A model generated the notes under the pieces. That model was not told the DNA's origin and ran no database searches. It saw only the letters and a program-made list of their open reading frames with translations. Positions 41,048 to 43,581 of a stretch of DNA of 64,000 bases are shown piece by piece. The stretch's first letter is position 1, and each line of letters starts with the position of its first letter. The stretch covers positions 868,001-932,000 of the forward strand of contig DASXEW010000001.1 in assembly GCA_036489885.1 (NCBI GenBank). The letters are read 5' to 3'. The stretch comes from Candidatus Baltobacteraceae bacterium (GTDB lineage: Bacteria; Vulcanimicrobiota; Vulcanimicrobiia; Vulcanimicrobiales; Vulcanimicrobiaceae). The translations under genes and the position numbers were made by a program.

Positions 41048-42316
41048 TTACGAGGGATAGTCGAGCTTACAGACCGCCATGATCGACGAAACGGACGGCG
41101 CAATTTTGTCCGCCGCAACCCGGTCTTCGATATGCATCACGTTGTAGGGATCCCCAGGCGTCCCGTTCGCTACGGTGTTGCCCACCCACATCGGCCACAT
41201 AAGGGCGTGGTTCTGTGCGCGGAAATACGCCTCGCCTTCGAAAATCGGCGAGTCGAATTGTTTGCCCTCGAGAGCTCTTGCAACTTTGACGGCGTCGGTA
41301 CTCTTGGCAGTGTTGATGCCGTTCAGTAACATGTCCATTCCGAGGTAGCCGAAAGCACTACGTGGAGAGGGTGGCAATTTAAACCGCTTGCGGTATTCGG
41401 CGACGAAGGCGTGAGCAGATGGCTTCTTACCCAAGACCAAATCGCTGTCGTAGTACCATTCGACGCCCCAATACCCAATTCGCGCCGGTTTCGGCAGCGC
41501 CCAGAAGTTCTCGAGATCCGCAAGCGGTCCGCCGACCTTCATCTTGCTGAGGATCCCGTAGCTGCCGGCTTGCTGCATCAGGGTCACGAAGTCGTTACCG
41601 CCGGGATTGCAGATGAAGACGTCTGCGCCAGAAGAGGCGAGCTGCGGAAGATACGATCCCCACTCGCTGGTACCAAGTGGTGCGTAAACGTTCCCGACCA
41701 GCGTCGCGCCAAGTTGCTTCGCAACGTCTTGGTAGCCTTCCATGATCGAGTGACCGTACGCATAGTCGGGCGTAATGGCGTACCATTTCTTGCCGAACTT
41801 CGAGAAGGTCGAACCGGTCGCGTGCGTGAGCATCCAGGTTGGGTGGCAGATCTGGAAACTGCTCCAGTGACATTCCTTCATCGTGAACGTGTCGGTGTGA
41901 CCGCCGGAGTCCATGTAGAGGACGCCCATCGAGTTCGCCGCACCCCCAACTGAAAGAGAAACCGCGCTTGACACGCTTCCGATGAGCGCGACGCATTTGT
42001 CCTGATTGACGAGCTTGCGCGCCTTTTGGACGGCGACGCCGGGGTCGGCAGCCGAGTCTTCCATGAGGAGAACGACCTGGCGATTCATCGCGCCACCCTT
42101 TTTATTCCAGGCCTCGAGCGCGAGCTGCATGCCGTTGAATTCGTCCTTACCGAGCGCGGCATACGTCCCGGTCTGCGGATCAATGGCACCGATCTTGATC
42201 TGGTCAGCGGCTTCCCCGAGCCGTGGTATGAACGCCGGAGCTCCGAATGTCGCCGCTCCCGCCGCGACTGCCGTCCCCTTCAGAAATCCCTTGCGCGACA
42301 GCGCAAACTTTCCCAT
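41048..42316 (-). CDS. Branched-chain amino acid-type ABC transporter substrate-binding protein (Tat-exported)
   Basis: The 422-aa periplasmic binding protein of the LivK type begins with a twin-arginine-like leader SRKGFLKGTAVAAGAATFGA, then QIKIGAIDPQTGTYAALGKD and VLLMEDSAADPGVAVQKARK, typical of type I periplasmic binding folds. Ligand may be a branched-chain amino acid, amide or urea. A perfect AGGAGG lies 4 bases before the ATG. No permease or ATPase gene (livH/M/G/F) is next to it, so it must work with a distant transporter. Confidence 0.88.
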   Translation of the reverse strand: MGKFALSRKGFLKGTAVAAGAATFGAPAFIPRLGEAADQIKIGAIDPQTGTYAALGKDEFNGMQLALEAWNKKGGAMNRQVVLLMEDSAADPGVAVQKARKLVNQDKCVALIGSVSSAVSLSVGGAANSMGVLYMDSGGHTDTFTMKECHWSSFQICHPTWMLTHATGSTFSKFGKKWYAITPDYAYGHSIMEGYQDVAKQLGATLVGNVYAPLGTSEWGSYLPQLASSGADVFICNPGGNDFVTLMQQAGSYGILSKMKVGGPLADLENFWALPKPARIGYWGVEWYYDSDLVLGKKPSAHAFVAEYRKRFKLPPSPRSAFGYLGMDMLLNGINTAKSTDAVKVARALEGKQFDSPIFEGEAYFRAQNHALMWPMWVGNTVANGTPGDPYNVMHIEDRVAADKIAPSVSSIMAVCKLDYPS

Positions 42317-42519
42317 GCAGCCTCCTAAGCAGATATAAAAGACTCGTCCGTACTGTGTTTGGACGTGTGGCCTGGGAACGTTCCGAATACGACAAAAGTG
42401 CCCTGCGAACTAACAGCGACGGATGAAGAGGTCTGTTAAGTGGGCTGAGTTTCAATGCCGGCGTTAGCGCGCCCAATTTGAAGAAAATAGCGATTTACAG
42501 GGATTTCTTCTCTTCCTGA

Positions 42520-42547
42520 GTAACGGAAATATAGATTATCGTTACTG
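42520..42547. other. dif: Candidate dif site (Xer recombination site)
   Basis: A 28-bp element is built as 11-6-11: left arm AGTAACGGAAA (42520-42530), centre TATAGA (42531-42536), right arm TTATCGTTACT (42537-42547). The left arm and the reverse complement of the right arm agree at 9 of 11 positions, with the outer 7 identical. The right arm resembles the conserved XerD arm of known dif sites (TTATGTTAAAT type) and the centre is AT-rich. It lies 17 bp before the start codon of a Xer-type recombinase, as with the XerS and XerH systems where the recombinase gene sits beside its site. Confidence 0.7.
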
Positions 42548-42564
42548 GGTTGGTGAGGAGAAGC

Positions 42565-43581
42565 ATGGCCCGAACGAGGCGATATGAGGCGGCCGATTTC
42601 CGATCCAAGGATCCGCTTATCGACGAATTCGCGGACTCTTTGGTTCGCGAAGGCCAGCAACCCCGAACGATCGTTGCCTACCAACGTGACCTCGAGCATT
42701 TGGGGTCGTTTCTTGCGTCTGGCAAAAACGATGATCCCGCGGAGCATCGCGAGCCGCCGTACGATCGGCTTGAAAAAGCGAGCGCCACCGATTTGATTGG
42801 CTATACGCGCTGGCTTCAAGGGTCGCGACGGTATGCGCACCGGTCGATTCGCCGAAAGGTCTCATGTCTTCGGAAGTTCTACCGGTTCGTTCGGTTCTCG
42901 GGGCGGCGCGCTGATAACCCCGCCAGCGATATACCGGTGCCCAAGCTCGGGCGCCGTGAGTTGACGGGAGTCTTGGACGTCGACGAGGTTCGCCGGGTGT
43001 TAACCATGGCGCCGCCGGCCGGCCTCGATGCCGCTCAAATTGCGCGCGATCGAGCGATTTTGGAATGCCTCTATTCGAGCGGGCTTCGACGCTCCGAACT
43101 CGTCGGATTGAACGAGGCGGACGTCAATTTGCAACGCCGCAGCATGCGCGTGCTTGGGAAAGGCAACAAAGTTCGTTACGTACCGTTGACGACGCATGCC
43201 GCGGAAGCCATGAGGCGATATGCGGATCTCCGTCCCCCGTCGCCGACCGGTGCTTTTTTTACAGGCCGAGCCAAGGCGCGTATAAGCGAATCACAAGTCT
43301 ATAAAGTCGTGCGTACGTACATGCTTCTCGCCGGCATCTCCGACGAGAACGCGCATCCTCACATCCTGCGGCACTCCGTTGCAACACACATGCGGGAACG
43401 GGGCGCGGATGTTCTCTTTCTTCGAGAGTTCCTTGGCCACGCGAGCACTGCGACGACGGAAATCTACACGCACCTTTCGGCTGAGCTTATACGGAGCGAG
43501 TTTGAGGAAACCCACGCACGAAGTACGATGGACGAGTCTACAGCCGCCCCTTTTCGTCGCCGTCGAGAACGTCGCGCTTAA
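42565..43581 (+). CDS. xer: Xer-type tyrosine recombinase
   Basis: The 338-aa recombinase has an N-terminal SAM-like core-binding domain (about 15-115) and a catalytic domain with Arg175 (SSGLRRSEL), Lys in GKGNKVR (about 199-202), His266-x-x-Arg269 (HILRHS), His292 (LGHAS) and Tyr301 (EIYTH). All catalytic residues are present. It is about 40 residues longer than XerC/XerD, with an Arg-rich C-terminal tail. It may act alone like XerH or XerS, resolving chromosome dimers at the dif-like site 17 bp upstream, though a second Xer gene elsewhere cannot be excluded. ATG 42565 follows GAGGAG. The tail overlaps panE by 4 bp. Confidence 0.9.
   Translation: MARTRRYEAADFRSKDPLIDEFADSLVREGQQPRTIVAYQRDLEHLGSFLASGKNDDPAEHREPPYDRLEKASATDLIGYTRWLQGSRRYAHRSIRRKVSCLRKFYRFVRFSGRRADNPASDIPVPKLGRRELTGVLDVDEVRRVLTMAPPAGLDAAQIARDRAILECLYSSGLRRSELVGLNEADVNLQRRSMRVLGKGNKVRYVPLTTHAAEAMRRYADLRPPSPTGAFFTGRAKARISESQVYKVVRTYMLLAGISDENAHPHILRHSVATHMRERGADVLFLREFLGHASTATTEIYTHLSAELIRSEFEETHARSTMDESTAAPFRRRRERRA

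Follow-up and report, generated by a model that had tools for sequence, protein, structure and literature searches.

In a few groups of bacteria and archaea, a single tyrosine recombinase acts at a dif site of its own. In the XerS/difSL system of streptococci and lactococci, the gene of the one recombinase is linked to the site and lies at the terminus (PMC5357621, PMC2731167), and in the XerH/difH system of Helicobacter and Campylobacter the site usually adjoins the gene of the single recombinase (PMC2731167). Archaeal XerA is also a single recombinase with a 28-bp site in the 11-6-11 layout, sometimes as a gene-site module (PMC5357621), and is described as FtsK-independent. XerL of the Legionellales has been shown genetically to act alone on its own site type, and gene-site adjacency is no described hallmark of this system (PMC9765430). 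XerCD/dif, the system of most bacteria, has two recombinases and a 28-bp 11-6-11 site in which one arm has TTAT at its inner edge, and it involves FtsK gamma.

We compared these systems with a locus from a Candidatus Baltobacteraceae bacterium of the phylum Vulcanimicrobiota. The locus lies in a window of 64,000 nucleotides, which is the whole stretch of DNA analysed. Like XerS/difSL, it has one recombinase, a gene-linked site, a position at the terminus and the polar heptamer GAAGAAG, which serves Lactococcus lactis as KOPS (PMC6466248). Unlike difSL (an atypical 31 bp) and XerS (356 aa), its site is a canonical 28-bp 11-6-11 element and its recombinase has 338 amino acids. The single recombinase and the adjoining site also recall XerH/difH, but similarity to XerH is weaker than to XerD and the difH motif TTGAAAAC...TTTTCAA (PMC2731167) is absent from the window's site. 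The locus agrees with XerCD/dif in site geometry, in TTAT at an inner arm edge, in XerD as the closest structure and in FtsK gamma. However, it has one recombinase only, so that the same protein must bind both arms, the site is beside the gene, and the protein falls below the curated cut-offs of both XerC and XerD. It shares the single recombinase, the layout and the module with archaeal XerA, but differs in having FtsK and a polar motif. XerL probably belongs to a different recombinase family. By analogy, the system of the window would work like XerS/difSL and XerH/difH, and its site has the geometry seen in XerCD and XerA systems.

The site and the recombinase gene

The 28-bp dif-like site, AGTAACGGAAA-TATAGA-TTATCGTTACT, occupies positions 42519-42546 of the window. 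Its left 11-bp recombinase arm (42519..42529, plus strand) is nearly identical in 12 relatives, its 6-bp central region TATAGA (42530..42535, plus strand) varies among relatives as TANNGA or TTNNGA, and its right 11-bp arm (42536..42546, plus strand) contains TTATCG, which is invariant in 13 type-B sites. Re-reading of the sequence bore out the initial annotation in that the arms match at 9 of 11 positions, with the outer 7 identical, around an AT-rich centre. The arms are unequal in their inner halves (CGGAAA vs CGATAA). The 11-6-11 layout and the order of site and gene also stood, with two corrections of one base: the site starts at 42519, not 42520, and its end is 18 bp, not 17 bp, from the ATG of xer at 42565. 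A probable ribosome-binding site, GTGAGGAG (42553..42560, plus strand), lies between the site and the start codon. The intergenic region holding the site (42317..42564, 248 bp) separates xer from a divergent gene on the minus strand (41048-42316), named from its own sequence as a putative ABC-type substrate-binding protein. A weakly conserved block (GGAGGGATTCT...CTC) was seen just left of type-B sites, in the window (42470-42518) and in relatives, and is partly retained even where xer is 10 kb off.

The xer gene (42565..43581, plus strand) encodes a tyrosine recombinase of 338 amino acids with the Pfam domains PF00589 (Phage_integrase, E 1.9e-38) and PF02899 (SAM-like N-domain). The complete catalytic set R-K-H-R-H-Y claimed for it was found as R175, K199, H266, R269, H292 and Y301, all invariant among 89 aligned Xer proteins apart from one gap at Y. 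Its nearest solved structure is E. coli XerD (E 2e-37, 132 bits), and the XerH structure 5jjv is a distant match (63 bits). The closest curated models are those of XerC (TIGR02224, 225 bits vs a cut-off of 335) and XerD (TIGR02225, 214 vs 330), with both scores well under the cut-off. The scores with the models of XerS (NF003462, 105.6 vs 267 bits) and archaeal XerA (NF040815, 188.8 vs 220 bits) also lie below theirs. The protein does not qualify as XerH either: its sequence is a distant match only, and its site is unlike the difH given in PMC2731167. When this single Xer protein was searched against GTDB genome contigs, all matches were distant, with no close relatives among them. A search of the open-access literature gave no account of dif or Xer from Vulcanimicrobiota. 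Because the protein falls outside the XerC, XerD, XerS and XerA definitions, XerH is distant and no such account was found, we regard the system as a new lineage of the known single-recombinase Xer/dif kind.

One recombinase per genome

The PF00589 search of the own genome gave one full gene and one 149-aa C-terminal integrase fragment. No second full-length PF00589 gene, and so no XerC/XerD pair, was found in this genome, which is 96% complete and therefore leaves some room for a missed second xer. The complete V. alpinum genome (G008) and G125 have one PF00589 gene each. In other relatives, further integrase-like genes were found with lower scores. Some lie close to contig starts, and they probably belong to elements or plasmids.

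The 149-aa piece (G000:C3:224678, L006:1465-1914), beside which no tRNA was found, was probably left behind by an integrated element. Both G041 (C5:98-601) and G119 (C5:99-602) have another full Xer-like recombinase at the extreme start of a contig, perhaps on a plasmid with its own resolution system. At the G053 locus (L163), a diverged second Xer-like gene (306 aa, with LRHEG replacing LGHES) is found downstream of xer, about 1.6 kb from its start, in the same direction and with one ORF between, and one site only was found.

Copy number and conservation of the site

With up to 3 mismatches allowed, the window has no match other than the site itself (expected 0), and the own genome (3.48 Mb, 4 contigs) has no other close copy. 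The many copies that would have spoken against the initial annotation were thus not seen. Exactly one copy with 0-1 mismatches per genome was found in 13 genomes of the same Xer clade.

Conservation next to xer, which had been proposed as a check, was observed in 12 relatives of this clade, whose Xer proteins are 50-56% identical to that of the window. They carry the same site type (type B), with the pattern AGTAAC(G/T)GAAA-TNNNGA-TTATCG...... The site lies 23-56 bp before the xer match in 9 of the 12, and upstream of xer by 1.6 kb in V. alpinum, 2.7 kb in G127 and 10 kb in G124. The type-B arms are kept more than their flanks (pairwise identity 0.84 and 0.73 vs 0.39 and 0.33, which are underestimates because one row is off by one base). 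In the congener G001, the only one in the set and 80% complete, xer and site were both absent.

The 1.6-kb gap in V. alpinum is due to a Mutator-family (IS256-type) transposase gene, which sits between site and xer and fills the gap (L054:9275-10513). The ancestral pair would thus have been split here, apparently recently. Insertion sequences near dif are known from other bacteria. We looked between site and xer of G124, G127 and G008 for a duplicated site of the IMEX type and found no second full site; the gap of G008 holds one isolated 8-bp half-site match.

Sites across the phylum and co-divergence with Xer

Xer orthologues were found in 73 of 78 relatives. From candidates chosen partly by eye, a site was assigned at 70 of the 90 xer loci with flanking sequence, at a median gap of 63 bp to the xer match, and 60 of the 70 sites lie within 500 bp of xer. 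All 70 are upstream, a figure slightly biased because the downstream side was scanned for only 1.5 kb. The 20 loci at which no site was assigned include several with little upstream sequence or from AT-rich distant genomes. When a fixed score threshold was used, a site was present in the 300 bp before xer at 48 of 83 loci, vs 2.6% of control windows. Three of the sites (G077, G068, G069) belong to genomes of other families in the phylum. The core common to the clades consists of A-N7-AAA (positions 9-11), an A at 17, TT at 18-19 and a terminal T; the search score itself favours AAA and TT, and it favours A17 only via AT content.

The difference between site arms rises with Xer protein distance (Mantel r 0.72, p 0.001), and at 50% protein distance about half of the arm positions differ. 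In the Xer tree, site types A, B and E each coincide with a single, fully supported clade. Family f3 is from another order, and its rows are scattered over several Xer clades; a tree constraining them together was rejected (lnL 220 lower, AU p 0.00016). The site of G053 (f3) has 2 arm differences vs the f1 genomes G005, G009 and G030 and 8 vs its family member G057; similarly, the G054 site has 1 vs the f1 genome G031 and 8 vs G059. The sites follow the Xer tree even against taxonomy, which suggests that gene and site move together. These comparisons, which set the Xer tree against family assignments, are read most simply as a joint exchange of gene and site. We hold this reading with moderate confidence, differential loss of old paralogues and misbinned contigs being its alternatives. 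We lean somewhat towards the wider picture that in Vulcanimicrobiota xer and dif form one portable unit, whose arms have diverged until the partners are probably no longer interchangeable, and that the pair may have been exchanged between orders, replacing the resident system, while GAAGAAG stayed constant.

At type-A loci (e.g. L020, L021, L015, L137), TCCACA ... TGTGGA repeats flank the site on both sides, about 10-15 bp outside the arms and sometimes as TTATCCACA, which is DnaA box-like. These repeats are possibly accessory binding sites.

Position at the terminus and polarity of GAAGAAG

The contig that carries the site, at 910.5 kb, has positive GC skew as far as about 916 kb and negative skew beyond about 944 kb. 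The cumulative skew enters a plateau near 912 kb and peaks at 944 kb, which is 33 kb from the site. Published distances between dif and the skew maximum in proteobacteria extend to 200 kb, the median being 7.3 kb and the third quartile 21 kb (PMC2731167). The skew turns from positive to negative just past the site, which does not lie far from the switch, a location that had been named as grounds for refutation. The chromosome of Vulcanimicrobium alpinum WC8-2 is circular and has 3,508,363 bp (PMC9758169). In it, dnaA is at 443 and the site at 1,692,084, which is 48.2% of the circle and near the antipode of dnaA; the GC skew is weak, and so is the GAAGAAG polarity (54:34).

All heptamers were scanned for strand polarity about the site, with no prior choice. 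GAAGAAG was the most polar on the own contig (118 toward the site, 20 away) and ranked first again when 400 kb around the G041 site were scanned (74:26). In the own genome, the best change point of GAAGAAG falls at 908,122-908,310 (65 of 74 motifs fit), about 2 kb from the site, and placing it in the interval that contains the site fits one motif fewer (64/74). In G041, it falls at 502,872-502,900 (76/100), about 1 kb from the site at about 503,890, and the interval ending at 503,868 fits 75/100. Gene orientation or codon bias was rejected as the cause of the polarity because lagging-strand genes keep it (42:9 and 37:8). Around the sites of other clades, GAAGAAG counts were 45:2 (type A) and 246:25 (other types), with homologous genes partly counted more than once. 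Consistent polarity was not found for the E. coli KOPS GGGNAGGG or the B. subtilis SRS GAGAAGGG. The own genome encodes an FtsK with alpha, motor and gamma domains. Both parts of an FtsK-activated Xer system, the gamma domain and a polar motif converging on the site, are thus present, and FtsK would be expected to bring the site to the septum.

Proposed function and alternative explanations

The initial annotation had proposed a self-contained dimer resolution module with a single Xer, and its main points held: the site is single-copy, no second XerC/XerD gene was found, xer linkage recurs in relatives, and the site is at the terminus. One Xer-type recombinase, a linked site within the 28-31 bp of such systems and a terminus location are the general features of single-recombinase Xer/dif, and all three were found here. 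The 28-bp element is very probably the dif of the chromosome, and the adjacent gene its sole acting Xer recombinase. Binding and cleavage by Xer, dependence on FtsK and the phenotype are predicted from sequence. FtsK, which has a gamma domain, would load on GAAGAAG motifs that point to the site from both sides, and its DNA pumping would bring the two sites of a chromosome dimer together at the septum. All four arms would then be occupied by the same Xer, in four copies; the unequal arms would decide which strands are exchanged first across the 6-bp centre, and two monomers would result from the dimer.

Palindromy by itself is weak proof of such a site. Counted over the window, 27 11-6-11 elements have 9 or more of 11 arm positions matching and 5 have the outer 7 identical, and a chance palindrome could be as good in this respect; the site is the only one of the 27 with at least 18 of 28 A+T. 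The comparative evidence makes it a convincing dif candidate: since it is conserved at the same place in 12 relatives, chance is rejected, and its probability is negligible. Integrative elements likewise pair a tyrosine recombinase with a core-type site, so the locus might be the integrase of a mobile element with its 28-bp attachment site. That origin is highly improbable, and we rejected it on single copy and orthology: the genome has no second att copy and most relatives have an orthologue, while the nearest families are XerC and XerD, not phage integrases, and the site is at the terminus.

The annotation had also suggested that the site might be an operator of xer. Its place in the leader, 18 bp before the start codon, is compatible with this, and in most relatives it is within 100 bp of xer. 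Scans of the leader with Rfam and for a sigma-70 promoter gave no match. Regulation of xer cannot be why the site is conserved in V. alpinum, G127 and G124 because it is kilobases away from the gene there, and several type-A genomes have it at least 1 kb away. The polarity of GAAGAAG reverses at the site, which has 11-6-11 geometry and an invariant AAA/TT core. It is thus very unlikely that the inverted repeat is only an operator, for autoregulation or for another regulator, and not a recombination site. A double role, as dif and as a place where bound Xer represses its own gene, is possible but doubtful. Bound Xer could hinder transcription because the site is in the leader region; the upstream position at all assigned loci with the short median gap agrees with this, and no recognised sigma-70-type promoter contradicts it. 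On the other hand, the distant sites make an operator role non-essential and repression superfluous in those genomes, and the linkage may reflect joint inheritance alone. We therefore keep to a dif site with its recombinase, for which repression of xer would be at most an addition.

Significance

This would be the first dif and dimer-resolution system found for the little-studied Vulcanimicrobiota (Eremiobacterota, WPS-2), including the cultured V. alpinum, and one more lineage for the few single-recombinase systems known. The site diverges in step with the recombinase and stays linked to it, so that the approximately 70 natural Xer-dif pairs may be used to study how specificity changes on both sides, and they bear on whether linkage lets an essential site drift. 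The sharing of GAAGAAG between L. lactis and Vulcanimicrobiota bears on the evolution of FtsK guide motifs.
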